Under the pieces are notes generated by a model, which saw nothing but the letters and a program-made list of their open reading frames with translations, was not told the origin of the DNA and made no database searches. This document shows, in pieces, positions 18,238 through 44,059 of a stretch of 64,000 nucleotides of DNA. The stretch is taken from NCBI RefSeq assembly GCF_003002055.1, contig NZ_PVZF01000001.1, positions 806,001-870,000 on the forward strand. The letters run 5' to 3'. Position 1 is the stretch's first letter. Each line of letters begins with the position of its first letter. The translations under genes were made by a program, and so were the position numbers. This stretch comes from Kineococcus rhizosphaerae. GTDB taxonomy: Bacteria > Actinomycetota > Actinomycetes > Actinomycetales > Kineococcaceae.

Positions 18238-18292
18238 GAGCCGACCCTGACGGGGCCTTCCCCCGGACGGAAGGACGAAGTTACGATCGCGA

Positions 18293-20903: not shown

Positions 20904-22268
20904 TCAGGCCCCGAGGGCCGTGAGGGACTCGTCCAGGGCCCGTACCACCGTGTCCACGTCACCGGCCGCGAAGACCAGCGGCGGGCGCAGCTTGAGGACG
21001 TTGCCGTGGGGCCCGGCGACCGAGGTGAGGACGCCGCGCTCGCGCAGCTCCTCCAGGACCGCCAGGGCCAGGTCGCGGTCCGGCTCGCGCGTCGAGCGGT
21101 CCGTGACGAGTTCGAGGCCGGTGAACAACCCCACCCCGCGGACGTCGCCCACGGCCTCGTGGGCGACGGCCAGCGCGTCCAGCGCGTCCCGGAACCGGGC
21201 GCCGACCTCGAGCGCGTGCTCCTGCAGGCCCTCCTCGCGCAGGACCCGCAGGACGGCGCGGGCGGCCGCCATCGAGACGGGGTTGCCGCCGAACGTGTTG
21301 AAGTACGGGACGCGGTCGCTGAAGGCCCGCAGCACGTCCTCGCGCGCGAACAGGCCCGAGACCGGGATGCCGTTGCCCATGGGTTTGCCCGTGGTCACGA
21401 GCTCGGGGACCAGCCCGTGCCGGGCGAACCCCCAGAACTCCTCCCCGGTCCGGGCGAACCCCGGCTGCACCTCGTCGGCGATGAACACGCCACCGGCGGC
21501 GCGCACCACGTCGACGGCCTCGGCGAGGAACCCGCGCCGCCCCGGCAGGACGCCGTCGGAGGAGAACACGGAGTCCGCGATGAACGCGGCGACGCCGAAC
21601 CCGTCGGCCTGCAGGGACGCGACGGCCTCGCGCACGCGGTCGGCGAACCAGGGGCCGAGCCTGGCGGGCGGCAGGCCCTGCCGGTAGGCGTCGGGGGCGG
21701 GGACGAGGCGGGTGGTCGGGGCCAGGGGCTGGCCCGACCCCAGCGCCGGGGAGAAACCCGACGTCAGGTCGCTCGTCCCGTGGTACGCCTCGCTCGTGGC
21801 GATGACGCCGAGGTTCCCGCTGAACTCGCGCGCGACGCGGACCGCGAGGTCGTTGGCCTCCGAGCCCGTGCACTGGTACATCGCCTTCCACGTCCCCGGG
21901 GCGGGGACCGCGGGGAGCGTCGCGAGGATCTCGTCGGTGTAGTCGAGGATCGTCTCGTGCAGGTACCGCGTGTGCGTGTTCAGCTGCTGCAGCTGGGCCG
22001 TGACGGCCTCGACGACGGCCGGGTGGCAGTGCCCGATGCTGGCGACGTTGTTGTACAGGTCCAGGTACCGGCGCCCGTCGGCGTCGAACAGGTACTGCCC
22101 CTCACCCCGCACCAGGTGGACCGGCCGGCGGTAGAACAACCGGTAGGAACCCCCCAGGACCCGTTCGCGGCGCTGCGTCAGACCCCGCGCCGCCGGGTCG
22201 AGCCCCGCGGCGTGCTCGGACCGGAAGCTGTTGGTGTCCATGATGGTGGACCGGGTGGGGGTGCTCAT
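20904..22268 (-). CDS. Class-III PLP enzyme, AGXT2L/phospholyase-like
   Basis: Encodes 454 residues of the class-III aminotransferase fold. The PLP Lys is in TTGKPMGNG, preceded by FIADEVQPGFARTG. The N-terminal block LFDADGRRYLDLYNNVASIG, GHCHPAVVEAV, RYLHETILDYTDEI and CTGSEANDLAVRVAR resemble the AGXT2L group, whose members in animals and bacteria are ammonio-phospholyases acting on phosphoethanolamine or 5-phosphohydroxylysine rather than transaminases. A kinase of the matching type is encoded divergently next door, supporting that reading. ATG 22268 has GAGGAG five bases upstream. A true transaminase remains possible. Confidence 0.78.
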   Translation of the reverse strand: MSTPTRSTIMDTNSFRSEHAAGLDPAARGLTQRRERVLGGSYRLFYRRPVHLVRGEGQYLFDADGRRYLDLYNNVASIGHCHPAVVEAVTAQLQQLNTHTRYLHETILDYTDEILATLPAVPAPGTWKAMYQCTGSEANDLAVRVAREFSGNLGVIATSEAYHGTSDLTSGFSPALGSGQPLAPTTRLVPAPDAYRQGLPPARLGPWFADRVREAVASLQADGFGVAAFIADSVFSSDGVLPGRRGFLAEAVDVVRAAGGVFIADEVQPGFARTGEEFWGFARHGLVPELVTTGKPMGNGIPVSGLFAREDVLRAFSDRVPYFNTFGGNPVSMAAARAVLRVLREEGLQEHALEVGARFRDALDALAVAHEAVGDVRGVGLFTGLELVTDRSTREPDRDLALAVLEELRERGVLTSVAGPHGNVLKLRPPLVFAAGDVDTVVRALDESLTALGA

Positions 22269-22492
22269 GGTTCTCCTCGCGCTGCGCTCGACGTGGTGGC
22301 GCCCGAACCCTCACGGCGGTGGCTGTCGCCGCGATCCTGACGGCCGCCGGTGACCCGCTGGTTCGCCCCGCGTTTCCGGCGCGTCAACTCCGCACCGGTC
22401 GTGTGAACTGTTCGTTACGGGGCCCGCCGCCGGGGCGTGCCCGTGCCAGGATCGTCGCGGCGCCCAGCCCTCCCCGCTCCCGGGGAGTTCCC

Positions 22493-23626
22493 GTGACCGC
22501 ACCCACCACCGCACCCACCACCGCACCCACCGCCGCACCCACCGCCGCACCCACCGCCGCACCCACCGCCGCACCGTCCGCTCCACCGTTCGCGCGGTTC
22601 GCGTCCCTGCGCCGCGGGGACCCCGCCCCCGGCTGGCTGCACCGCACGGTGCTCGACGCCTGGGGCCTGCCCGCCGCCACCTCGCTCACGCTCATCGCCG
22701 TCTCGGAGAACGCGACCTTCCGCGTCGAGACCGGCGGGTCACCGGTCGGGGTGCTGCGGGTCCACCGACCCGGGTACGTCGCCGACGCCGCGCAGATCGA
22801 GGCGGAGCTGCACTGGGTGCGGGCCGTCGGCGAGGACACCGACGTGCGGGTGCCCGAGGTGCGAGCGCTGCGCGACGGTTCCCTGGTCCACGCCTTCACC
22901 GACGAGACCGGCGCGCGCTGGTTCGCCGTGCAGTTCGGGTTCGTCGACGGCGAGGTCCTCGAGGACGTCCTGGCCGCCGGCGACGTCGACCTGGACGTCG
23001 TGCGCGCCCGGTACGCCGAGATCGGCGCGACGACCGCCGCGCTGCACGAGCACGTCGGCGCCTGGACCCCGCCGCGGGGTTTCACCCGGTTCGACTGGGA
23101 CCTCGACGACGCGCTGGGGGCGGGCAGCCGCTGGGGCGACTGGCGCCGGGCCGCCCTGAGCCCGCAGCAGCGGGACGTGTGCGAGCGGGGGGAACTCGCC
23201 GCGCGCGCCGTCCTGGCCACCGCGACCCCGACCGGGCTCGTCCACGCCGACCTGCGCCCCTCGAACCTCATGGTCGACCGGGCGGGGCGGCTGACCGTCA
23301 TCGACTTCGACGACTGCGGGTGGGCCAGGCTGCTGTGGGACTTCGCCGCCGCCCTGAGCTTCATCGAGCACGAGGACTTCACCCCCGCGCTCGCCTCGGC
23401 GTGGCTGGCCGGCTACCGGACGGTGCGCCCGCTGTCCGAGGAGGACCTCGAGGTCGCGGCGGCGCTGTCCGTCGTGCGCCGGCTGCAGATGCTGGGCTGG
23501 ACCACCACCCACCGGCAGGACGCCCTGCCCCCGGCGGTCTGGGCCGCGCAGGTGCCCGGGACGGCGCGCGTGGTGGGAGAGTACCTGCGCCGCCCCCGCT
23601 GGCTGTTCGAGGACGGTGCGCGCTGA
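22493..23626 (+). CDS. APH/choline-kinase-fold small-molecule kinase
   Basis: Encodes 377 residues. The catalytic loop GLVHADLRPSNLMVDRAG and the metal-binding VIDFDDCG show the aminoglycoside-phosphotransferase/choline-kinase fold; the substrate is a small alcohol or amino alcohol. Homologues of hydroxylysine kinase are often next to or fused with AGXT2L phospholyases, which fits the divergent neighbour. The first 30 residues are a repetitive APTT/APTA tail and are probably disordered. GTG 22493 is preceded by GGGGAG; a later start after the repeats cannot be ruled out. A resistance role is possible but less likely in this context. Confidence 0.78.
   Translation: MTAPTTAPTTAPTAAPTAAPTAAPTAAPSAPPFARFASLRRGDPAPGWLHRTVLDAWGLPAATSLTLIAVSENATFRVETGGSPVGVLRVHRPGYVADAAQIEAELHWVRAVGEDTDVRVPEVRALRDGSLVHAFTDETGARWFAVQFGFVDGEVLEDVLAAGDVDLDVVRARYAEIGATTAALHEHVGAWTPPRGFTRFDWDLDDALGAGSRWGDWRRAALSPQQRDVCERGELAARAVLATATPTGLVHADLRPSNLMVDRAGRLTVIDFDDCGWARLLWDFAAALSFIEHEDFTPALASAWLAGYRTVRPLSEEDLEVAAALSVVRRLQMLGWTTTHRQDALPPAVWAAQVPGTARVVGEYLRRPRWLFEDGAR
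22499..22570. repeat. Six 12-base tandem repeats at the kinase 5' end
   Basis: Six back-to-back units: two GCACCCACCACC followed by four GCACCCACCGCC. They encode APTT twice and APTA four times. Perfect copies suggest recent expansion and possible length variation among isolates. Confidence 0.9.
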
Positions 23627-26249: not shown

Positions 26250-27014
26250 TCAGCCCAGCCGGTACGTCCCGGGGCGGCGCTCGGCGAGGTAGTCCACGAC
26301 CTCCCGCGCCCGGCGCAGGTCGTCGGCGTCGACGTCGGCGACGAGCAGCGCGGGGGCGTCGTCGGGCCCGACGGCCAGGACGCGCCCGTCGGGCCCGACG
26401 ACGACGGACCCGCCGCTGAACCTCTCCCCGTCGGGGGCCGGGCCGTGGTGGTTGGCGTAGGCGAGCGCGACGCGGTTCTCGTAGGCGCGGGCGGGCAGCA
26501 GCACCCGCGCCACGCTCGGGTCGCTGATCGCGGTGGGCACCACGACGACGTCGGCCCCGGACAGGGCCAGGCCGCGCACGGTCTCGCCGAACTCCACGTC
26601 GAAGCAGACGAGGACGCCGACGCGCAGCCCGGCGACCTCCACGACCAGCGGGGTCCCGTCACCGGGGCCGAACGCGGCGCGCTCGGCCGGGCCGTACAGG
26701 TGCGTCTTGACGTAGCGGCCCAGGACGGTGCCGTCGCGGTCGACGACGACGGCCGTGATCCGGGGAACGCCCGCGTCCTCGTGCGGTTCGCTGACCACCA
26801 GGGCCACACCGGTGCGCCGGGCCACGTGCTGCACGCGCGGCAGGACCGTGGGGTCGGGGTGCACCCGGCCGGGGTCGTAGCCGCTGGTGAACAGCTCCGG
26901 GGTGAGCAGCAGGTCGGCCCCGGCGCGGGCGGCCGCGGTGGCCGCCCGCTCCAGCGTTTCGAGGTTGGCCGCGACGTCGGCGCTCGCGGCCTCCTGGGCG
27001 ACGGCGATCCTCAC
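26250..27014 (-). CDS. Nitrilase-superfamily amidase, probably 4-guanidinobutanamide hydrolase
   Basis: Encodes 254 residues of the carbon-nitrogen hydrolase superfamily with the complete Glu-Lys-Cys triad: Glu in LLTPELFTSGYD, Lys in RYVKTHLYGP, Cys in VLVCFDVEFGE. Enzymes of this branch hydrolyse omega-amides. Its start overlaps the permease stop by four bases. With a flavin amino-acid 2-monooxygenase and a ureohydrolase in the same locus, it would convert 4-guanidinobutanamide to 4-guanidinobutyrate and ammonia. The lysine-pathway amidase (5-aminovaleramidase) is the main alternative, argued against by the ureohydrolase. Confidence 0.8.
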   Translation of the reverse strand: MRIAVAQEAASADVAANLETLERAATAAARAGADLLLTPELFTSGYDPGRVHPDPTVLPRVQHVARRTGVALVVSEPHEDAGVPRITAVVVDRDGTVLGRYVKTHLYGPAERAAFGPGDGTPLVVEVAGLRVGVLVCFDVEFGETVRGLALSGADVVVVPTAISDPSVARVLLPARAYENRVALAYANHHGPAPDGERFSGGSVVVGPDGRVLAVGPDDAPALLVADVDADDLRRAREVVDYLAERRPGTYRLG

Positions 27015-28465
27015 CGCGGCTCACCCGCCGGGACCGGGGACGGCCGTTCCAGCCGGGACCGGTGGCGGCCGTAGCCGAGGTGGACGGCCACGCCGACCAG
27101 CGTCCAGGCGCCGAAGGCGATCCAGGTGCCGGTGCCGAGGTTGAGGGCCAGCAGCACGCACATCGCGGCGCCCAGCAGCGGGGTCCAGGGGAAGAGCGGG
27201 ACGCGGAACGTGCGGGGCAGGTCCGGGCGGGTGCGCCGCAGGACGACGACCGAGACGTTGACGAGGGCGAAGGCGGCCAGCGAGCCGATGCTCGTGGCGT
27301 CGGCGAGCGCCCCCAGGGGCACGAGGGCGGCCAGGGCGGCGACGGCCCCGCCGACGATCGCGGTGTTGAGCACGGGGACGCCGCGGCGGTCCAGGCGGCC
27401 GAAGACGGCCGGGGCCAGTCCGTCGCGGGCCATGCTGAACAGGATGCGCGTCTGCCCGTAGAGCACGGTGAGCACGACGCTGGCGATGGAGACGAGGGCG
27501 CCCAGGGAGAACACCACGCCGACCCACGTCTGCCCGGTGACCTCGCGCAGGATGTCGACGAGGGCGACCTCGACGCCGTCGAACCACGTCCACTGCCGCG
27601 CCCCGACGGCGGCGAGCGCCACCAGGCAGTAGATGGCGGTGATGACGACGAGGGACAGCACGATGGCGCGCGGCAGGTCGCGGCGGGGGTCGCGGGCCTC
27701 CTCCCCGGCGGTGCTGGCGGCGTCGAACCCGATGTAGGAGAAGAAGAGCCGGGAGGCGGCCGCGGTGGCCCCGGCCACGCCCAGCGGCGCGAACGGGGTG
27801 AGGTTGCCGGCCCGGAAGGCGGTGAACGCGACGGCGCAGAACAGGGCGAGCACGACGAGCTTGACGACGACCATGACGGCGTTGACGGTGGCGCTCTCCT
27901 GGGCGCCGCGGACCAGGAGCAGGACGGCGCCGACGACGACGAGGGCGGCGGGCAGGTTGACGACCCCGCCGGAGCCGGGCGGCTGGACGGTCCAGGCGGG
28001 CAGGGTCAGGCCGCTGACGGCGTGCACGACGTCGGCGACGTACTGGCCCCAGCCGACGGCGACGGCGGCGACCGAGACGCCGTACTCCAGCAGCAGGCAC
28101 CACCCGCACAGCCAGCCGGCGAACTCCCCGACGGTGGCGTAGACGTAGGAGTAGCTGGACCCGGCGACGGGCACGGCGCCGGCCATCTCGGCGTAGGACA
28201 GGGCCGACAGCAGGGCGGTGAACCCGGCCAGCACGAAGCTGACGACGACGGCGGGCCCGGCCAGGGGCACGGACTCGCCGAGGACGACGAAGATGCCGGT
28301 GCCCAGGCTGGCGCCGATGCTCAGGGCGGTCAGCTGCCACAGCCCCAGGGAGCGGCGCATGCTGCCCGCTCCGCCGGTGCCGTGGCCGGCCTCGGAGACG
28401 ATCTGGTCGACGGGTTTGGTGCGCAGCAGCTGGGCGCGCAGGCCCGGCCGGGTGGTGCGGTCCAC
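27011..28465 (-). CDS. APC-family cationic-amino-acid-type permease
   Basis: Encodes 484 residues with 12 or more hydrophobic segments. LSIGASLGTGIFVVLGE, LSYAEMAGAVPVAGSSYSYV and EYGVSVAAVAVGWGQYV follow the cationic amino acid transporter (CAT) branch of APC permeases, which take up arginine or lysine. The soluble N-terminus (RAQLLRTKPVDQIVSEAGHG) is also typical of that branch. GTG 28465 has GAAGGAG about six bases before it. It is translationally coupled to the amidase gene. Arginine is the most likely substrate given its neighbours. Confidence 0.85.
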   Translation of the reverse strand: MDRTTRPGLRAQLLRTKPVDQIVSEAGHGTGGAGSMRRSLGLWQLTALSIGASLGTGIFVVLGESVPLAGPAVVVSFVLAGFTALLSALSYAEMAGAVPVAGSSYSYVYATVGEFAGWLCGWCLLLEYGVSVAAVAVGWGQYVADVVHAVSGLTLPAWTVQPPGSGGVVNLPAALVVVGAVLLLVRGAQESATVNAVMVVVKLVVLALFCAVAFTAFRAGNLTPFAPLGVAGATAAASRLFFSYIGFDAASTAGEEARDPRRDLPRAIVLSLVVITAIYCLVALAAVGARQWTWFDGVEVALVDILREVTGQTWVGVVFSLGALVSIASVVLTVLYGQTRILFSMARDGLAPAVFGRLDRRGVPVLNTAIVGGAVAALAALVPLGALADATSIGSLAAFALVNVSVVVLRRTRPDLPRTFRVPLFPWTPLLGAAMCVLLALNLGTGTWIAFGAWTLVGVAVHLGYGRHRSRLERPSPVPAGEPR

Positions 28466-28509
28466 GGGACTCCTTCGTCCGGAGGTGTTCGGGTTCTCGT
28501 CCGGTGCGT

Positions 28510-29142
28510 TCACGCGCTGCGGCGCGGCGGGTCGGACAGGGCGGGGCTGACGACCCACAGCACCCGGGCGGGGCCGTTCGCGGTGGCCCGGAAGCTGTGG
28601 GGGCGGGCGGGGTCGAAGGTGAAGGCGTCCCCAGCGCTCAGCACGACGTCCTCGGCGGGTGCGGGGTCGGGGCCGGCGAAGCGCAGTTCGATCTCGCCGG
28701 CGAGCACGAGCGCGAACTCGACGTCGGCGTCGAGGCCGTAGGGCTCCTCCCCCGACCCGCCGCCGGCGTCCAGTTCGCTGACGATGACCGCCACGCGTCG
28801 TTCCCCGACGGGGGTGAGCAGGGACTCGCGCAGGCCGTGCCCGCCGAAGGTGATGGGCGGGTAGTGCCCGGCGCGGAGGACCTCGCCGGCCGGGGCCGGG
28901 GTGAAGAGGCTGCCCACGGCCAGGTCGAGGGTGGTGCACAGGCGGACCAGGGCGGCGACGGAGGCGGTGGCGCGGTCGCGTTCGAGGCGGGACAGGAAGC
29001 CCTTGGTCAGGCCGCTGGCCTCGGCGACCTCGGCGACGGTGCGGCGCTGGGCCAGGCGTGTGGTGCGCAGCCGGGCCCCCACGAGTGCCGCGCCGCCGGT
29101 GGTCCCCGGTTCCCCGGGGTCGTCCGCCGCCGTCTCCTGCAC
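28510..29142 (-). CDS. XRE-family regulator with cupin domain
   Basis: Encodes 210 residues: an N-terminal lambda-repressor-like helix-turn-helix (TVAEVAEASGLTKGFLSRLE, then RDRATASVAALVRLC) and a C-terminal cupin (VEFALVLAGEIELRFAG; FDPARPHSFRATANGPARV). This XRE-cupin design is common in regulators of amine and amino-acid breakdown (PuuR-like). GTG 29142 has AGGAGGA four bases upstream; the longer frame covers the divergent control region. It probably controls both itself with the permease and amidase, and the divergent ureohydrolase-monooxygenase pair. Confidence 0.9.
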   Translation of the reverse strand: MQETAADDPGEPGTTGGAALVGARLRTTRLAQRRTVAEVAEASGLTKGFLSRLERDRATASVAALVRLCTTLDLAVGSLFTPAPAGEVLRAGHYPPITFGGHGLRESLLTPVGERRVAVIVSELDAGGGSGEEPYGLDADVEFALVLAGEIELRFAGPDPAPAEDVVLSAGDAFTFDPARPHSFRATANGPARVLWVVSPALSDPPRRSA

Positions 29143-29208
29143 CGTTCCTCCTGCTCCCGTCGCCGTCGCGTCGCCGCAGTCTGGCACCGCCGGGCGCGAT
29201 CTGAAAAC

Positions 29209-29224
29209 CCCCTGGCTCCAGAGG
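29209..29224. promoter_or_regulatory. Operator-like palindrome between XRE-cupin and ureohydrolase genes
   Basis: CCCCTGG-CT-CCAGAGG is an inverted repeat with one mismatch, inside the 127-base divergent region, next to an AT-rich patch (GAAAA at 29203-29207, GTAAACAAAGG after it). Placement suits binding by the XRE-cupin regulator. Binding is inferred. Confidence 0.5.
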
Positions 29225-29269
29225 TAAACAAAGGTTGACCGATGCGGGGCGACGCGCCACTGTGGGGCC

Positions 29270-30238
29270 ATGTCGTCCCCCAGCACCCCTCCGTCGCCGC
29301 AGGGTCCGGTCGACGCCACCCGCGTCCCCCGCTACGGCGGCCCCGCCACCTTCGCGCGCCTGCCGCGCCTGGACGAGGTCTCGCGCGCCGACGTCGCCGT
29401 CGTCGGGCTGCCCTTCGACTCCGGCGTCAGCTACCGGCCCGGGGCGCGGTTCGGCCCCGGGCACATCCGGGCCTCCTCCAAGCTGCTGCGTCCCTACAAC
29501 CCGGCCCTGGGCGTCTCCCCGTTCGCCCCCCAGCAGGTCGCCGACGCCGGCGACCTCGGCCTGAACCCGTTCGACATCGGCGAGGCGCTGCGCGAGACCG
29601 AGACGGCGCTGACGCGGCTGACCGAGGACGGGGCGACGGTCATGGCCCTCGGCGGGGACCACACCCTCGCCCTGCCCGCGCTGCGCGCCCTGGCCAAGCA
29701 GCACGGCAGGCTCGCGGTCCTGCACTTCGACGCCCACCTCGACACGTGGGACACGTACTTCGGGGCGCCCTACACGCACGGCACCCCGTTCCGCCGCGCC
29801 AGCGAGGAGGGCCTGCTGGACCTCGAACGCTGCCTGCACGTCGGTACCCGCGGCCCCCTCTACAGCGAGCAGGACCTCGAGGACGACGCCGTCCTGGGCT
29901 TCCAGGTCGTGCGCTCGGACGACTACGAGGTCGACGGCGTGGCCGGCGCGGTGGACCGCGTGCGCCGCCGCCTGGGCGACGGCCCGGTCTACGTCTCGGT
30001 TGACATCGACGTCCTGGACCCCGCCGCGGCCCCCGGCACGGGGACCCCCGAGGCCGGTGGCCTCACCAGCCGGGAACTGCTCAACACGCTGCGCGGGCTG
30101 ACGGGCCTGAACGTCGTCGGCGCCGACGTCGTGGAGGTCGCCCCCGCCTACGACCACGCCGAGATCACCGGGATCGCCGCGGCGCACGTCACGTACGAGC
30201 TGCTGTCCGTGCTCGCCGCGACCCGGGCGGGGCGCTGA
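29270..30238 (+). CDS. Ureohydrolase (agmatinase family), probably guanidinobutyrase
   Basis: Encodes 322 residues of the arginase/agmatinase family. All manganese ligands are visible: GGDHT (His), FDAHLDTWD (Asp, His, Asp) and [19 protein letters not shown] (two Asp). The reaction is hydrolysis of a guanidino group to an amine plus urea. Agmatinase (agmatine to putrescine) and guanidinobutyrase (4-guanidinobutyrate to 4-aminobutyrate) cannot be told apart by motif; the second is favoured because the flavin monooxygenase and amidase of the locus would supply 4-guanidinobutyrate, and no arginine decarboxylase is nearby. Its stop is one base before the next start. Confidence 0.85.
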
Positions 30239-30239
30239 G

Positions 30240-31970
30240 ATGACCCTGCCCACCGGCACCAGCACCGAGGACGAACTGCCCCAGGCGCCCACCGGCGGCG
30301 CCGGTCCGCTGACCATGCTCGTCCCGGACTTCCCGTTCCCCTACGACGACTACCTCGCCCACCCCGCCGGGCTGGGCTCGGTGCCCGCCGAGCGCCTCGG
30401 CACCGAGGTCGCCGTCATCGGGGCGGGCATGTCCGGGCTGGTCGCGGCGTACGAGCTGATGAAGCTGGGGCTGCGCCCGGTCGTGTACGAGGCCGGCGAG
30501 ATCGGCGGCCGGCTGCGCTCGGCGGCCTTCCCCGGTGTCCCCGGCGCGGTGGCCGACCTCGGCGGCATGCGCTTCCCCGCCTCCGGGCGCGCGTTCTTCC
30601 ACTACGTCGACACCCTCGGCCTGCGCACCAGCCCGTTCCCCAACCCGCTGGCCCCGCAGACCCCCAGCACGGTCATCGAGCTGCGCAACCAGGCCCACTA
30701 CGCCGAGACCGCGGCGGACCTGCCCGCCGAGTTCGGCGAGGTCGCGGCCGCGTGGCGGCGCGCGCTGGTCGAGGGCGCGGAGCTGGAGGCCATGCAGGAC
30801 GCGATCCGCCGCCGCGACCTGGCCACGATCAAGGAGATCTGGAACCGGACGGTCCCGCGCCTGGACGAGGAGACGTTCTACGGCTTCGTCGCCCGGTCCG
30901 CCGCGTTCTCGGCCCTGCCCTACTCCTACCGGGAGACGTTCGGCCAGGTCGGCTTCGGCACCGGCGGCTGGGACACCGACTTCCCCAACTCCGTCCTGGA
31001 GATCCTGCGCGTCGTGCACACCGACGCCGACGACCAGCACCACCGCATCACCGGTGGCGCCCAGGGCGTCCCGCTGGGTCTGTGGGAGCACGCTCCCGCC
31101 GACCTCGTGCACTGGCCCGCGGGCACCAGCCTGCGGTCCCTGCACGGCGGGTCCCCGCGCCCGGCCGTCACCCGCGTGCACCGCGGCGAGGACGGGCGCC
31201 TGCGCGTCCTGGACCGCTGGGGCACCGAACGGCCCTACGAGGCCGTCGTCGCGACCTGCCAGTCGTGGCTGCTGTCGGCGGGCATCGACACCCAGGAGTC
31301 GCTGTTCACCCACGACATGTGGATGGCGATGGAGCGCTCGCACTACATGCAGTCCTCCAAGACGTTCGTCCTGGTGGACCGCCCCTTCTGGCGCGACGTC
31401 GACCCCGCCACCGGCCGGCGCGTCCTGAGCACCACGCTGACCGACCGCATGACCCGCGGCACGTACCTGCTCGACGGCGGCGAGGGCCTCGACGACCCCG
31501 ACGCCGCGGACTCCCCCGCCGTCATCTGCCTGAGCTACACCTGGAACGACGACGCGCTGAAGTGGCTGGCGCTGGACACCGACGAGCGCGTGCGGCTCAT
31601 GCTGCACAACCTCAAGCAGATCTACCCCGACGTGGACATCGCCTCGCACGTCCTCGGGGAGCCCATCACCGTGTCGTGGGAACGCGAACCGCACTTCATG
31701 GGCGCCTTCCGGGGGAACCTGCCCGGGCACTACCGCTACCAGCAGCGGCTGTTCTCCCACTTCGTCCAGGACGACCTGCCCGACCACCAGCGCGGGATCT
31801 TCCTGGCCGGGGACGACATCTCCTTCACCCCCGGCTGGGCCGAGGGCGCGGTCACGACCGGCCTGAACGCGGTGTGGGGCGTGGTGCACCAGCTCGGCGG
31901 GACCAGCGCCCCCGGCAACCCCGGGCCGGGTGACCGGTTCGCGGAGCTGCAGCCGCTGCGCCTGCCCTGA
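30240..31970 (+). CDS. FAD-dependent L-amino-acid 2-monooxygenase-like enzyme (putative arginine 2-monooxygenase)
   Basis: Encodes 576 residues. The dinucleotide-binding motif VAVIGAGMSGLVAAYELMKL lies near residue 57, followed by VYEAGEIGGRLRS and ADLGGMRFP; MRFP is a mark of tryptophan/lysine/arginine 2-monooxygenases within the amine-oxidase fold. The C-terminal FAD motif FLAGDDISFTPGWAEGAVTT is intact. Such enzymes decarboxylate an amino acid oxidatively to the amide with one fewer carbon. Linkage to a ureohydrolase, amidase and CAT permease points to arginine as substrate (product 4-guanidinobutanamide). An L-amino-acid oxidase or lysine monooxygenase is the alternative. Confidence 0.82.
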   Translation: MTLPTGTSTEDELPQAPTGGAGPLTMLVPDFPFPYDDYLAHPAGLGSVPAERLGTEVAVIGAGMSGLVAAYELMKLGLRPVVYEAGEIGGRLRSAAFPGVPGAVADLGGMRFPASGRAFFHYVDTLGLRTSPFPNPLAPQTPSTVIELRNQAHYAETAADLPAEFGEVAAAWRRALVEGAELEAMQDAIRRRDLATIKEIWNRTVPRLDEETFYGFVARSAAFSALPYSYRETFGQVGFGTGGWDTDFPNSVLEILRVVHTDADDQHHRITGGAQGVPLGLWEHAPADLVHWPAGTSLRSLHGGSPRPAVTRVHRGEDGRLRVLDRWGTERPYEAVVATCQSWLLSAGIDTQESLFTHDMWMAMERSHYMQSSKTFVLVDRPFWRDVDPATGRRVLSTTLTDRMTRGTYLLDGGEGLDDPDAADSPAVICLSYTWNDDALKWLALDTDERVRLMLHNLKQIYPDVDIASHVLGEPITVSWEREPHFMGAFRGNLPGHYRYQQRLFSHFVQDDLPDHQRGIFLAGDDISFTPGWAEGAVTTGLNAVWGVVHQLGGTSAPGNPGPGDRFAELQPLRLP

Positions 31971-32882: not shown

Positions 32883-33257
32883 TCACAGGAGGCGGACGTC
32901 GTACTCGCCGAAGCGCCGGTCGACGCTGAGCAGTCGCAGTCCCCGCCGGGCGGCCTGCGCGATGAGCATCCGGTCGAAAGGGTCGTCGTGGTGGCGCGGC
33001 AGGGCGCCGGCCGCCAGGCCGTCGTCCACGGTGACCGGCAACTCGGTGAAACCCTGCTGCTCGAGTTCCTCGCGCAGACCGTCGGGGACGGTCAACTTGC
33101 CCAGAGCAGCCTTGATCGACATCTCCCACGCCGAGGCCGCGGAGACGAACACCTCGTTCCCGCCGTCGGCCACGGCGGCGCGCAGGCGTTCGGGCAACCG
33201 CTCGTCGTCGCTGAGCCACCACAGCAGGACGTGGGTGTCGAGCAGGAGGGCCGTCAC
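32883..33257 (-). CDS. PIN-domain toxin (VapC-type RNase)
   Basis: Encodes 124 residues of the PIN fold. The acidic metal-binding residues are in place: Asp in LLLDTHVLLWWL, Glu in ASAWEMSIK, Asp in HHDDPFDRMLIAQA and Asp in LSVDRRFGEYD. VapC toxins cleave tRNA or rRNA and stop translation. The GTG start overlaps the stop of the upstream antitoxin gene by four bases. The DTHVLLWW-type N-terminus is typical of VapC partners of Phd/YefM antitoxins. Confidence 0.9.
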   Translation of the reverse strand: MTALLLDTHVLLWWLSDDERLPERLRAAVADGGNEVFVSAASAWEMSIKAALGKLTVPDGLREELEQQGFTELPVTVDDGLAAGALPRHHDDPFDRMLIAQAARRGLRLLSVDRRFGEYDVRLL

Positions 33258-39764: not shown

Positions 39765-41240
39765 TCAGAGCGGGAAGTTCACGTACTTCGTCTCCAGGTA
39801 CTCCTCGATGCCCTCCAGGCCGCCCTCGCGGCCGAACCCGGAGGCCTTGACCCCACCGAAGGGCGCGGCGGCGTTGGACACGAGCCCGGAGTTCAGCCCG
39901 ACCATCCCGGTCTCCAGCGCCTCGGCCACCCGCATGGCGCGGTCCATGCCCTGGGTGAAGGCGTAGGCGATCAGCCCGTACTCGGTGTCGTTGGCCAGGG
40001 CGACACCCTCCTCCTCGGTGTCGAACACGACGACGGGGGCGACCGGGCCGAACGTCTCCTCGGTGAGCAGGCGCGCGCCGACGGGGACGTCGGTGACCAC
40101 GGTGGGGGCGTAGAAGTAACCCGCCTCCCCCACCGCCTGCCCGCCGACGACGACCCGGGCCCCGGCCTCGACGGCCTCGGTGACGCGCTGGGCGACGTCG
40201 TCGCGGGCCCGGGCGTCGATGAGCGGCCCGACCTGGGCGCCGTCCTCGGTGCCGCGGCCGACGACGAGGGAGCCCATGCGCTCGGCGAGCTTGCGGGAGA
40301 ACTCCTCGGCGACGGGACGCTGCACGTAGAACCGGTTCGCGGCGGTGCACGCCTCGCCCTGGTTGCGCATCTTGGCCAGCATCGCGCCCTCGACGGCCTT
40401 GTCGACGTCGGCGTCGTCGAAGACGACGAACGGGGCGTTGCCGCCCAGTTCCATGGAGATCCGCAGCAGCTGCTGGGCGGACTGCTCGACGAGCTTCTTG
40501 CCCACCGGGGTGGAGCCGGTGAACGTCAGCTTGCGCAGCCGCGGGTCGGCGATGAGCGGGGCGACGACCTTGCTCGTCGTGGACGTCGTGATGACGTTGA
40601 CGACCCCGTCGGGCACCCCGGCGTCGGCGAGGGTCTGGGCCAGGTACAGCGTCGTCAGCGGGGTCTGGGTCGCGGGTTTGACCACGATGGTGCAGCCGGC
40701 GGCCAGGGCCGGGGCGATCTTGCGGGTGCCCATGGCCAGCGGGAAGTTCCACGGCAGGATGGCCAGGACCGGCCCGACGGGCTGCTTCATGGTGAGCAGC
40801 CGGGACCCGCCGACGGGATTCTGGGAGTAGCGCCCGGAGATGCGCGGGGCCTCCTCGGAGAACCAGCGGAAGAACTCGTTGCCGTAGGCGACCTCGCCCT
40901 TGGCCTCGGCCAGGGGTTTGCCCATCTCCAGCGTCATGAGCAGGGCGAAGTCGTCGGCGCGCGCGGCGACGAGGTCGAAGGCCTTGCGCAGGATCTCGGC
41001 GCGCACGCGGGTGGGGGTCTTGGCCCACGCCGGGGCCGTGGCGACCGCGGCGTCGAGGGCGGCGGTGCCGTCCTCGACGGTGCCGTCGGCGATCTCGACG
41101 AGGGTCCGGCCGGTAGCGGGGTCCTCCACGGCCACGGTCGCGCCGCCGGTCGCGGCCCGCCACCGCCCGCCGATGAACAACCCGGTCGGGACGGTGGAGA
41201 GGAGTTCGGACTCGCGGGTGGAGTCGATCGTCGTGCTCAT
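39765..41240 (-). CDS. gabD: NAD(P)-dependent succinate-semialdehyde dehydrogenase
   Basis: Encodes 491 residues of the aldehyde dehydrogenase superfamily. Catalytic Cys is in GEACTAANRF (near residue 288), general-base Glu in MELGGNAPFVV; ILPWNFPLAMGTRKIAPALA and VVKPATQTPLT form the cofactor site; GGVKASGFGREGG closes the chain. These patterns match GabD-type enzymes. It lies 20 bases after gabT on the same strand, so the pair would convert 4-aminobutyrate to succinate. ATG 41240 follows an AGAGGGA site. Confidence 0.9.
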   Translation of the reverse strand: MSTTIDSTRESELLSTVPTGLFIGGRWRAATGGATVAVEDPATGRTLVEIADGTVEDGTAALDAAVATAPAWAKTPTRVRAEILRKAFDLVAARADDFALLMTLEMGKPLAEAKGEVAYGNEFFRWFSEEAPRISGRYSQNPVGGSRLLTMKQPVGPVLAILPWNFPLAMGTRKIAPALAAGCTIVVKPATQTPLTTLYLAQTLADAGVPDGVVNVITTSTTSKVVAPLIADPRLRKLTFTGSTPVGKKLVEQSAQQLLRISMELGGNAPFVVFDDADVDKAVEGAMLAKMRNQGEACTAANRFYVQRPVAEEFSRKLAERMGSLVVGRGTEDGAQVGPLIDARARDDVAQRVTEAVEAGARVVVGGQAVGEAGYFYAPTVVTDVPVGARLLTEETFGPVAPVVVFDTEEEGVALANDTEYGLIAYAFTQGMDRAMRVAEALETGMVGLNSGLVSNAAAPFGGVKASGFGREGGLEGIEEYLETKYVNFPL

Positions 41241-41260: not shown

Positions 41261-42628
41261 TCAGTTGGCGGCGAAGACGCGGTCCAGGACGTCGAACGCC
41301 TGGTTCAGCAGGTCGTCGCCGATGCTCAGCGGCGGCAGGAAGCGCAGGACGTTGCCGTCGGTGCCGCAGGTCAGGACGATGACGCCCTGCTGCGCGGCCT
41401 CGGTCGCGACCTTCTTGGCCAGGGCGGCGTCGGGTTCGGTGGTGCCGGGCTTCACGAGTTCCACGGCGACCATGGCGCCGCGGCCGCGGACGTCGCCCAC
41501 GCGCGGGTCGCGCGCGGCCAGGGCCCGCAGGCGGCCGAACAGGATCTCCTCGAGCCGGCGGGCGCGGGCGAGGAGGTCCTCGTCCTCGATGGTGCGCAGG
41601 GTCGCCAGGGCCGCGGCGGTGGCCAGCGGGTTGCCGCCGTAGGTGCCGCCGAGGCCACCGGTGACGGGGGCGTCGACGATCTCGGCGCGGCCGGTCACGG
41701 CCGACAGCGGCAGTCCGCCGGCGACGCCCTTGGCGATGGTGACGAGGTCGGGCTCGACCCCCTCGAGGTGGCTGGCGAACCAGGCGCCCGTGCGCGCGAC
41801 GCCGGTCTGCACCTCGTCGGCGACGAACACGACGCCGTTCTCCTTGGCCCAGGCGGCGATGGCGGGCAGGAACCCGGGCGCGGGGACGATGAACCCACCC
41901 TCGCCCTGGACGGGCTCGATCACGATCGCGGCGAGGTTGGCGGCGCCGACCTGCTTCTCCACGACGGCGATGGCGCGGGCGGCCGCGGCCGGGCCGTCGA
42001 GGCCGTCGCGGAAGGGGTAGCTCAGCGGGGCGCGGTAGACCTCGGGCGCGAACGGCCCGAAACCGTTCTTGTAGGGCATGTTCTTGGCCGTCATGGCCAT
42101 CGTGAGGTTGGTGCGCCCGTGGTAGGCGTGGTCGAACACGACGACGGCCTGCCGACCGGTGTGGGCGCGGGCGATCTTCACGGCGTTCTCGACGGCCTCG
42201 GCGCCGGAGACGAAGAAGGCGCTCTTCTTGGCGAAGTCGCCGGGAGTCAGCTCGGCGAGGCGCTCGGCCAGCTCCACGTAGGAGTCGTACGGGGTGATCA
42301 TGAAGCAGGTGTGGGTGAACCGCTCGACCTGCTCGGTGACGGCGGCCACGACGGCCGGGGCGGAGTTGCCCACGGTGGTCACGGCGATGCCGGAGCCGAG
42401 GTCGGCGTAGGAGTTGCCGTCGACGTCGACGACGACGCCGCCCCCGGCCGCGGCGGCGTAGAAGGGCATGGAGGACCCGACGGCGGCCGAGACCGCGGCG
42501 GTGCGCCGGGCGGCGAGCTCGCGCGACCGGGGTCCGGGGACCTCGGTGACGAGCCGGATCTCCTGCGGGAGCGCGGGGCCCCCCTGGCCGGTGGTGCCCT
42601 GCTGCGCCTCGTGGCTGAGCGTCGTCAT
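41261..42628 (-). CDS. gabT: 4-aminobutyrate aminotransferase
   Basis: Encodes 455 residues, class-III PLP aminotransferase. PLP Lys is in TIAKGVAGGLPLSAV, with FVADEVQTGVARTG before it and VIEPVQGEGGF earlier; GSGIAVTTVGN and FTHTCFMITPYDSYVELAER are the GabT pattern. The enzyme transfers the amino group of GABA to 2-oxoglutarate and yields succinate semialdehyde, used by the next gene. ATG 42628 is 84 bases from the divergent PucR regulator. A role with 5-aminovalerate (lysine route) is possible as a side activity. Confidence 0.9.
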   Translation of the reverse strand: MTTLSHEAQQGTTGQGGPALPQEIRLVTEVPGPRSRELAARRTAAVSAAVGSSMPFYAAAAGGGVVVDVDGNSYADLGSGIAVTTVGNSAPAVVAAVTEQVERFTHTCFMITPYDSYVELAERLAELTPGDFAKKSAFFVSGAEAVENAVKIARAHTGRQAVVVFDHAYHGRTNLTMAMTAKNMPYKNGFGPFAPEVYRAPLSYPFRDGLDGPAAAARAIAVVEKQVGAANLAAIVIEPVQGEGGFIVPAPGFLPAIAAWAKENGVVFVADEVQTGVARTGAWFASHLEGVEPDLVTIAKGVAGGLPLSAVTGRAEIVDAPVTGGLGGTYGGNPLATAAALATLRTIEDEDLLARARRLEEILFGRLRALAARDPRVGDVRGRGAMVAVELVKPGTTEPDAALAKKVATEAAQQGVIVLTCGTDGNVLRFLPPLSIGDDLLNQAFDVLDRVFAAN

Positions 42629-42672
42629 GAGGCGACGGTAGGCCCGTCGGGCCGTGTCCGCAGTGCCCGATC

Positions 42673-42701
42673 TGCACCGTCGACGTGCTCGCAGCGGTGC
42701 A
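42673..42701. promoter_or_regulatory. Inverted repeat in the gabT/PucR divergent region
   Basis: TGCACCG (42673-42679) and CGGTGCA (42695-42701) form a perfect 7-base dyad with 15 bases between, 12 bases before the regulator start and 45 bases before gabT. Likely binding site of the PucR-type regulator; not demonstrated. Confidence 0.5.
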
Positions 42702-42712
42702 AGATGTCCTGC

Positions 42713-44059
42713 GTGGTGCAGCTCGCCGACCTCCTCGCGACCCCGTCCCTGGACCTGCGTCTCGTCGTCGGCGACCCGGGCGTCGCGGTGCGCTGGGTCG
42801 CGACCAGCGAGCTCGACGACCCGACCGCCTTCCTGGAGGGCGGTGAGCTGCTGCTGACCACGGGGCTGCGCGTGCCGCGCGCGGGGTGGGCGCGCTGGGT
42901 CGAGCGGCTCGTGGCCGCCGGGGTCTCGGGCGTGGGCTTCGGCGTCGGCCTCAGCCACCGCACCGTGCCGCGGACCCTCGTGACGGCCGCGGGCACGGCC
43001 GGGCTCGCCCTCGTCGAGGTGCCGGTCCCGACCCCGTTCATCGCCGTCTCCCGGCGCCTGGCGGACCTGCTGCGGCGCGGGGAGAACGAGGCCGAGGCGG
43101 CCGCCGCCCGGGCCCAGCGCGACCTCACCGTGGCCGCGACCGGGCCGGACGGGACCCGCGCCGTCCTGGTGCGGGCCGCGCGGGCCGTCGGGGGGTCGGC
43201 CTGGCTGCTCGACGCCGCCGGCACCGTGCTGGCCGCCAGCACGGCCGCCGCACCGTCCGCGGCGGCCCTCGACGGGTTGCGGCGCGTGCGCGGGCAGGGC
43301 GCCCGCGCGGCCTGGAGCGAGGTGACGGCCACCGGGTCGTCGACGTTGCTGGCCAGCGGCACGTCCCGCTGGCTGCTGGTGACCGGCGCACCCGGCGCCC
43401 CGCGCGCCGTGCGGGGCACCCTCGGCACCGCCGCGGCCCTGCTGGGCCTGCTCACGTCCCGCCCGGGCGGGGAGGCGACGTCGGTCCTGACGGCCGTGGT
43501 GGTCGACCTCGTCCTCGACGGGCGGGTGGACCCGGCCCGGCGGCTGGCCGGCACCGTCGGCCTCGACCTGCCCGACCCCGTCGTCGTCGTGCGGTGGGCG
43601 GGGACCGCCCCCGCCGGTGCGCTCGTCGCCGAGCGCTACGCGCTGTTCGGCGCGGGTGAGGTCCCGGCCCTGGCCGGGCGGGCGGGCGTCGGGCGCGCCG
43701 TGGCGCTGACCGGGGCCGGCGAGGGCCGGCGCACGGCCGACCTCGCGTTCGCCCGGACCACCGCCGAGCGCCCGGTCGTCCTCGCGGGCGACCGGTCGCT
43801 GCCCGACCTGCTCGACGGGGAGGTCCTGACCCGCTGGTCGCGCGAGCGCCTCGCCGGTCTGGACCCCGAGCTGCGGGAGGCGGTGCAGGTGTTCCTGGCC
43901 CACCACGGAGCCCGTCAGCCCACCGCCGAAGCCCTGGGCCTGCACCGCAACACGTTGCGGCACAGACTCTCCCGCGCCCAGGAGATTCTGGGCGTGTCGT
44001 GGGAGGACCCCACCGACCGCGCGGAGGTGTGGCTGGCCCTGACGGCCCGGCCGAGCTGA
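42713..44059 (+). CDS. PucR-family transcriptional regulator (GabR-like context)
   Basis: Encodes about 448 residues: N-terminal PucR domain ([34 protein letters not shown]), a middle GGDEF-like region and a C-terminal helix-turn-helix of the PucR/CdaR type ([20 protein letters not shown], then LSRAQEILG). In Corynebacterium glutamicum a PucR-type protein, GabR, activates the gab operon; the divergent position here suggests the same. Starts at ATG 42704, GTG 42713 and GTG 42716 are all in frame. Confidence 0.88.

Follow-up and report, generated by a model that had tools for sequence, protein, structure and literature searches.

A divergent locus proposed to encode an arginine 2-monooxygenase pathway

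Which amino acid is served by the five genes at positions 26250–31970 of a stretch of Kineococcus rhizosphaerae DNA, and do these genes make up a complete catabolic route? The stretch, hereafter the window, comprises 64,000 nucleotides (positions 806,001 to 870,000 of NZ_PVZF01000001.1) and was placed on an 894-kb contig of a genome that totals 5.61 Mb. An earlier, sequence-only reading had proposed that an amidase, a permease and an XRE-cupin regulator on the minus strand, facing a ureohydrolase and a flavin 2-monooxygenase on the plus strand, constitute the arginine 2-monooxygenase pathway with its own uptake and control. Our comparisons support this proposal at the level of sequence, and we consider it highly probable that these genes form a self-contained regulon for arginine catabolism by this pathway. 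The support comes from the residue class of the flavoenzyme and its co-occurrence with the ureohydrolase, from the phylogeny and context of the ureohydrolase, from the alternatives that are missing in the genome, and from relatives of the flavoenzyme that are linked to polyketide clusters.

In the proposed route, L-arginine would be imported, probably by the permease, and the flavoenzyme would use O2 to convert it by oxidative decarboxylation into 4-guanidinobutanamide. The amidase would hydrolyze this compound to 4-guanidinobutyrate, from which the ureohydrolase would form 4-aminobutyrate (γ-aminobutyric acid, GABA) and urea. A nearby GABA transaminase and succinate-semialdehyde dehydrogenase (SSADH) would then carry GABA to succinate, and urease would consume the urea. 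The XRE-cupin protein would bind a palindrome at 29224–29239, which coincides in part with the proposed −35 element of an operon of the ureohydrolase and monooxygenase genes, and would repress this operon until a pathway metabolite binds to the cupin domain. In this scheme we infer the enzyme activities, the transport substrate, the operon structure, the direction of regulation and the inducer.

All five genes are intact, with the strands and spacing proposed earlier. The minus strand encodes the nitrilase-fold amidase (26250–27014; CN_hydrolase, 146 bits), a putative 4-guanidinobutanamide amidohydrolase, the APC-family amino acid permease (27011–28465; AA_permease_2, 173 bits, and AA_permease_C, 47 bits), whose gene overlaps that of the amidase by 4 bp, and the XRE-cupin regulator (28510–29142; HTH_31, HTH_3 and Cupin_2). 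A divergent control region of 127 bp (29143–29269) separates the regulator gene from the plus-strand genes, which encode the ureohydrolase (29270–30238; Arginase, 309 bits), a putative 4-guanidinobutyrase, and, after a gap of 1 bp, the flavin L-amino acid 2-monooxygenase (30240–31970), a putative arginine 2-monooxygenase. The five genes contain no internal stops, have a GC content at third codon positions of 0.95–0.99, and exceed the curated Pfam cut-offs of the domains named above and of Amino_oxidase. The most plausible starts of the permease and regulator genes are GTG codons at 28465 and 29142, preceded by AAGGAG and AGGAGG motifs, respectively. The active sites of the three enzymes are intact, as had been claimed. 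The amidase retains E40, K103 and C137, which we take to be its catalytic residues and which are invariant in all 11 sequences of a hand-chosen alignment. The ureohydrolase contains the motifs GGDH, DAHxD and SxDxDxxDPxxxP, as given in PMC5704753, and the flavoenzyme has the counterparts described below.

The flavoenzyme differs from lysine-type enzymes at three positions

The nearest solved protein to the flavoenzyme is the L-amino acid oxidase/monooxygenase (L-AAO/MOG) of Pseudomonas sp. AIU 813 (3we0; 798 bits, 61% identity), and 5yb8 is a template of the same identity that was crystallized with arginine. It is described in PMC5832979 that Arg102 and Tyr416 bind the α-carboxyl/amino group, that Asp238 holds the side-chain charge, and that Cys254 tunes oxidase versus monooxygenase activity; wider pockets in two relatives accompany changes at Trp235 and at Ala515, the latter to Gly. 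Counterparts of Arg102, Trp235, Asp238, Tyr416, Trp418, Phe473 and Trp516 are all present in the locus flavoenzyme. Three other positions differ: Cys254, Gln258 and Ala515 are replaced by A263, H267 and G532, so that in AIU 813 numbering the locus enzyme reads A254/H258/G515 and the AIU 813 enzyme C254/Q258/A515. Of the two changes linked to wider pockets, Ala515 to Gly is thus present and that of Trp235 absent.

This difference bears on the possibility that the locus encodes a lysine 2-monooxygenase route of the DavB/DavA type with the ureohydrolase as a bystander. The shared identity of 61% with the AIU 813 enzyme fits such a route, as does the monooxygenase kcat/Km of that enzyme, which, at differing pH, is higher for lysine than for arginine; the values described are 74 for lysine (pH 7), 200 for ornithine and 24 for arginine (pH 9) (PMC5832979). 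When the best 80 of 553 confirmed homologues were compared, the C/Q/A triad was found in the AIU 813 enzyme, in 33 Pseudomonas loci and one Paucimonas metagenome-assembled genome among those 80, and in one locus of the same order (L035). Every other row compared carries the A/H/G triad, apart from L036 (A/Q/G). Once the class sample described below is included, the full ten-residue signature was present in 142 of 189 rows and the lysine-type signature in 37, some genomes recurring among the rows. The homologue at L075, which is cut off at a contig end, was omitted from the triad comparison and enters the 189 rows with two unread positions, and that of genome G143, read in two frames, was omitted from the residue counts, which cover 28 of the 29 carriers in the order sample. 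The two-frame homologue of G143 (L037, L038) adjoins a ureohydrolase gene.

In a tree of 61 hand-chosen rows out of the 189, the lysine-type signature forms one clade of 12 rows, comprising the AIU 813 enzyme and Pseudomonas loci (Shimodaira–Hasegawa-like approximate likelihood ratio test, SH-aLRT, 100), and requires 1 change; the character "ureohydrolase nearby", whose labels were set by hand, takes 9. The locus flavoenzyme falls outside this clade. The tree is resolved in part: support reaches 95 or more on 25 of its 58 inner branches, 17 are unresolved, and much of the tree beyond the lysine-type clade is poorly resolved. The three substitutions part the locus enzyme from the davB clade.

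Two other flavoenzymes deserve mention. The second flavoenzyme of genome G631 (L175, 7825–9492) has Asn in place of Asp238 and adjoins an amidase, an M20 peptidase, an amino acid permease and a PucR-type regulator; because the D238N variant of the AIU 813 enzyme is reported to be inactive, it likely takes another substrate. The divergent flavoenzyme of genome G200 (L036/L219) has Cys at position 516 and lies by a thiamine-diphosphate enzyme, AMP-binding enzymes and a condensation domain, perhaps in a peptide-type biosynthetic cluster.

The flavoenzyme signature co-occurs with a ureohydrolase

We analyzed co-occurrence in an order sample of 297 genomes and a class sample of 394 genomes, which overlap, counting as ureohydrolases the matches to the locus protein (P0004) with E ≤ 1e-100 and E ≤ 1e-80, respectively. 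In the order sample the flavoenzyme was found in 29 of 297 genomes, and the ureohydrolase in 25 of these 29 carriers compared with 53 of 268 non-carriers; in the class sample it was present in 60 of 65 carriers and in 65 of 329 non-carriers. The association follows the residue signature. The ureohydrolase was detected in all 59 class-sample genomes with the full signature (source genome included) and in 24 of 26 such genomes of the order sample, and it was missing genome-wide from both class-sample genomes with the lysine-type signature (G071 and G647). The remaining class-sample carriers have Phe516 (G365, G524), Leu254 (G323) or both (G639). Of the 11 Kineococcus genomes sampled, 7 carry both genes and the other 4 lack both.

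The ureohydrolase was also said to set the locus apart from DavB/DavA, and this holds: no ureohydrolase match appears in the examined flanks of any of the 35 lysine-type loci (L035, and 34 among the best 80 of 553 matches). The flavoenzyme of G647 adjoins amidase, gabT-like and SSADH-like genes, as expected of a lysine route. The gabT product could also serve as a 5-aminovalerate transaminase, which would suit lysine degradation at the Kineococcus locus too. Given the substitutions and the missing ureohydrolases, a lysine route is very unlikely.

A broader specificity deserves more weight. A generalist basic-amino-acid oxygenase would oxidize arginine, ornithine and lysine, with the ureohydrolase serving the arginine branch only and ornithine yielding GABA directly via 4-aminobutanamide. 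The kinetics of the AIU 813 enzyme on all three amino acids and the retention of Asp238 are consistent with it. The near-obligate tie of signature and ureohydrolase, together with their repeated physical linkage, points instead to arginine as the selected substrate, and we regard the generalist as unlikely, although some breadth in vitro is possible.

The ureohydrolase is a proposed guanidinobutyrase and groups apart from two agmatinases

The best solved matches of the locus ureohydrolase are guanidinobutyrase (3nio, 283 bits), guanidinopropionase (267 bits), proclavaminate amidinohydrolase (258 bits), and the agmatinases of Burkholderia (203 bits) and E. coli (193 bits). The ureohydrolase might alternatively be an agmatinase, with the flavoenzyme acting on putrescine or another amine, and the NCBIfam model TIGR01230, named "agmatinase", does score 221 bits on it, above the cut-off of 174. 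This name is uninformative because GbuA (212 bits) and proclavaminate amidinohydrolase (205 bits) exceed the cut-off too, and we rejected it. In a tree of 38 rows (33 different, including five reference chains), a branch with support 99 places the two agmatinase chains apart from the remaining 36 rows, and the locus ureohydrolase does not group with E. coli SpeB; the tree carries a long-branch warning for GbuA, GpuA and proclavaminate amidinohydrolase, and its SpeB row has one surplus letter. A search of the genome for an arginine decarboxylase, which covered the fold-III and OKR_DC_1 families and not the pyruvoyl type, found none: there is no OKR_DC_1 enzyme, and the two fold-III decarboxylases were rejected because both are LysA. 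Finally, the flavoenzyme keeps Arg102 and Tyr416, the binders of the α-carboxyl/amino group. An agmatine route is therefore highly improbable.

The actinobacterial ureohydrolases form a clade of their own (support 96) beside the group of GbuA, GpuA and proclavaminate amidinohydrolase. Within it, ureohydrolases encoded near the flavoenzyme are intermixed with others paired with a thiamine-diphosphate enzyme, whose gene adjoins that of the ureohydrolase on the same strand in 7 of 7 loci examined. PRK07524 (5-guanidino-2-oxopentanoate decarboxylase) is the best NCBIfam match for six of these seven enzymes and the second best for the seventh, with scores of 320–488 bits that all lie under the cut-off of 500. 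One type of ureohydrolase thus seems to serve two distinct upstream routes, each leading to 4-guanidinobutyrate. An alphaproteobacterial locus (L090, Palleronia pontilimi) has an A/H/G flavoenzyme, an amidase, a PRK07524 protein above the cut-off (720 bits) and a ureohydrolase of the GbuA clade; the monooxygenase route and a 2-ketoarginine decarboxylase with a GbuA-type ureohydrolase seem to coexist there.

The amidase and the permease

The nearest solved chains to the amidase are 5jqn and 3hkx (172 bits), presumably the Nesterenkonia AN1 amidase, and an amidase match is present in 16 of 20 flavoenzyme loci (L166–L185). A flavoenzyme-adjacent amidase of an uncultured Nesterenkonia (L072) is much closer to 5jqn/3hkx (402 bits), and a second Nesterenkonia locus (L102) has an amidase (237 bits), a ureohydrolase and a flavoenzyme together. 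Because these relatives adjoin the same kind of flavoenzyme, sequence context suggests 4-guanidinobutanamide as the natural substrate of the crystallized amidase.

The permease had been described as CAT-type. It is an APC-family permease, and the CAT label proved loose: the CAT model TIGR00906 scores 275 bits against a cut-off of 682, and none of the 25 NCBIfam models listed exceeds its cut-off, the best being TIGR00909 (470 against 557 bits). Its substrate is presumably arginine. A membrane protein with a "Gate" domain (PF07670) is encoded at the flavoenzyme locus of two distant hosts (L067, 6602–7987; L090, 2634–4007), where it is possibly an alternative transporter.

A palindrome in the control region is the proposed operator of the XRE-cupin protein

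The control region contains GTAAACAAAGGTTGAC at 29224–29239, a 16-bp palindrome (GTAAAC-N4-GTTGAC) that we propose as an operator on the basis of motif counts and conservation. It overlaps the TTGACC hexamer of the proposed ureohydrolase promoter (29235–29263, plus strand), in which a spacing of 17 bp is followed by the weak second hexamer CACTGT. At up to one mismatch the palindrome has no other match in the window (0.02 expected). The genome contains two exact sites, both with an XRE-cupin gene no more than 0.5 kb away, and none of the reversed pattern. The second copy (C6:187935–187950; L216, 4436) is located between the gene of a PF02133 cytosine/purine-type permease and what reads as a short SnoaL-like gene, and the XRE-cupin paralogue 0.5 kb beyond it is 67% identical over 186 residues, with a near-identical helix-turn-helix. 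Upstream of the ureohydrolase gene, the motif scores 11–12 of 12 in all eight loci with an adjacent regulator of at least 54% identity (the window, L010, L011, L012, L013, L161, L169 and L170). Among the other 24 loci scored, L015 reaches 11 and 23 score 10 or less, four of them with a distant regulator (36–39%).

The proposed promoter is partially conserved within Kineococcus. Scans of 28400–29400 for consensus sigma-70 promoters and terminators found none, and the control region has no unusual single-stranded DNA fold (z 0.13). The ATG of the ureohydrolase gene at 29270 has no visible ribosome-binding motif and lies 6 bp past the weak −10-like hexamer; because the start codon follows the proposed promoter so closely, a leaderless mRNA is possible. 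The position of the palindrome and the cupin domain of the regulator together suggest repression that is relieved by a pathway metabolite.

The rest of the route in the genome and neighboring genes

The locus ureohydrolase gene is the only arginase-family gene of the genome, in which no gene of the ADI (arginine deiminase) family was found, and two urease alpha matches above the cut-off lie elsewhere. Genes for the last steps are located 8 kb downstream of the locus on the minus strand: gabT (41261–42628), whose product matches the 4-aminobutyrate transaminase equivalog TIGR00700 (602 bits, cut-off 507), and a gabD-like gene (39765–41240) that resembles SSADH genes, its part 39765–41132 scoring 573 bits with TIGR01780, below the cut-off of 646. 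Alongside and divergent from gabT is a gene for a PucR-type regulator (42638–44059, plus strand, start approximate) that exceeds the cut-offs of PucR and HTH_30. Relatives G078 and G048 also have a gabT/gabD-like pair close to the locus.

Two other features were seen in the window. A class III aminotransferase-like gene (20904–22268, minus strand), whose product matches the C-terminal part of the longer PRK06148 protein below the cut-off, is divergent from a gene recognized by eye as encoding a phosphotransferase fold (22319–23626, plus strand), and the pair presumably resembles a hydroxylysine kinase/phospho-lyase pair. A short open reading frame (ORF) at 32883–33257 (minus strand) resembles by eye a PIN-domain (VapC-like) toxin.

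Relatives of the flavoenzyme in polyketide clusters

Two related flavoenzymes with A254/G515 and Phe516 (L166 and L172, genomes G365 and G563) belong to polyketide clusters that also encode LuxR-type regulators and AMP-binding enzymes. L166 has an amidase and no ureohydrolase match, and L172 a ureohydrolase and no amidase match. PMC5082578 and PMC10322714 describe an arginine monooxygenase and a 4-guanidinobutyramide hydrolase in the starter route of arginoketides, polyketides primed with arginine, and PMC4737276 and PMC5704753 an amidinohydrolase that unmasks amino-type products. L166 and L172 are candidate arginoketide clusters, and because their setting matches the starter route, it ties the A254/G515 group to arginine by context. 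L167, another enzyme with Phe516, shows no polyketide genes in the scanned stretch, and Phe516 was rejected as a sign of polyketide linkage.

These relatives also raise the question of whether the Kineococcus locus supplies an arginoketide starter unit rather than serving catabolism, since the first two steps are described as the same in azalomycin biosynthesis (PMC5082578). By eye, the ORFs at about 21–47 kb of the window (at least 380 amino acids beyond 37 kb) include no polyketide synthase or CoA ligase, the flanks not having been subjected to a family search. The permease, the regulator and gabT fit catabolism, and the polyketide-linked L166 and L172 enzymes differ from the locus enzyme at residue 516. 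Starter-unit supply is very unlikely at this locus.

Evidence weighing against an arginine regulon

Several observations speak against the arginine reading and temper our confidence in it. The arginine preference of the flavoenzyme is not readable with certainty, because arginine, lysine and ornithine are all substrates of the AIU 813 enzyme. The locus ureohydrolase adjoins the GbuA clade and is not inside it, and it has Tyr at the position of the GbuA specificity residue Met161, as does 3-guanidinopropionase. This last point is not decisive: an Aspergillus niger guanidinobutyrase also has Tyr, and is described in PMC10833137 as 30-fold better on guanidinobutyrate than on guanidinopropionate, so that we did not retain Met161/Tyr157 as a test of specificity. 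Co-occurrence is imperfect. In the order sample, G171 has the full signature and a ureohydrolase of only 41% identity, and G184 (76% complete) has the full signature and no close ureohydrolase; G365 and G524, which have A254/H258/G515 with Phe516, lack the ureohydrolase; and in Arthrobacter and in the largest carrier genus of the class sample (g112) the two genes are mostly unlinked. The association may in part reflect shared ancestry, the counts being uncorrected for relatedness. The gene set also varies, the G048 locus (L124) having no permease match and the stretches examined in G014 and G148 containing just the ureohydrolase and flavoenzyme genes of the set. Regarding the operator, L015 has its 11 of 12 match with no regulator match within the 19.5 kb examined, and two near-copies with one mismatch on contig C20 have no XRE-cupin match nearby. 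The C20 sites (18243–18286; L214, L215, L217) are two perfect palindromes, GTCAACN4GTTGAC, 28 bp apart, and are possibly sites of another regulator.

Beyond this locus, we lean towards a more general conclusion, with clearly less confidence: arginine-specific 2-monooxygenases would be a distinct, mainly actinobacterial class, marked by A254/H258/G515, that sequence can tell from lysine 2-monooxygenases and that has repeatedly, in several lineages, been joined with a guanidinobutyrase; in Kineococcus and some relatives the combination would form an autonomous arginine-to-GABA regulon with an XRE-cupin protein acting on GKAAAC-N4-GTTGAC.

Comparison with known systems

The L-arginine 2-monooxygenase (arginine oxygenase, EC 1.13.12.1) pathway belongs to the classical biochemistry of Streptomyces and Arthrobacter. 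The Kineococcus locus shares with it the proposed chemistry to GABA and urea and an actinobacterial host; the classical pathway is known mainly as activities, whereas here the genes, a regulator and a proposed operator stand together. The pathway itself is already known, from arginoketide starter units in Streptomyces. New here, beyond the earlier reading, are the gabT and SSADH-like genes downstream, the two urease alpha genes, and the 16-bp palindrome at the proposed ureohydrolase promoter. What the locus contributes is to connect a known but little-studied route with specific genes, with residues of the active sites and with a proposed regulatory DNA site. The three-residue mark may help annotators to separate arginine from lysine 2-monooxygenases, the predicted regulator–operator pair could serve as a sensor for the arginine pathway, and a crystallized amidase gains a proposed natural substrate.

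The earlier statement that few such loci have been studied genetically needs one qualification: in Streptomyces, the biosynthetic version of the route is already worked out. The open-access literature yielded the biosynthetic route and no genetically studied catabolic locus, which is weak evidence of absence as most subscription papers lie outside it. According to PMC5082578, PMC10322714 and PMC4737276, the azalomycin/desertomycin route likewise uses an arginine monooxygenase and a 4-guanidinobutyramide hydrolase, and amino-type members add an arginase-family amidinohydrolase. There the acid is converted into a CoA ester for the polyketide synthase, whereas the Kineococcus genes are accompanied by a permease, a regulator and GABA genes. 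The cloned azalomycin cluster is described as being without the monooxygenase gene, and the locus has one. The Medi2865 protein of Streptomyces mediocidicus, likened here by description only, is another actinobacterial arginase-family enzyme and is described as converting 4-guanidinobutyrate to 4-aminobutanoate (PMC5704753).

The arginine transaminase/oxidase route with 2-ketoarginine decarboxylase and GbuA converges with the proposed pathway on 4-guanidinobutyrate and guanidinobutyrase, and seems to use the same actinobacterial ureohydrolase clade; its upstream enzymes differ from those of the locus. The DavB/DavA route of Pseudomonas and the AIU 813 L-AAO/MOG have in common with the locus the enzyme family (61% identity) and the pairing of a monooxygenase with a nitrilase-fold amidase (PMC5832979). 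On that side, C254/Q258/A515 goes with the absence of a nearby ureohydrolase in 35 of 35 loci, whereas the Kineococcus locus combines A254/H258/G515 with a ureohydrolase.

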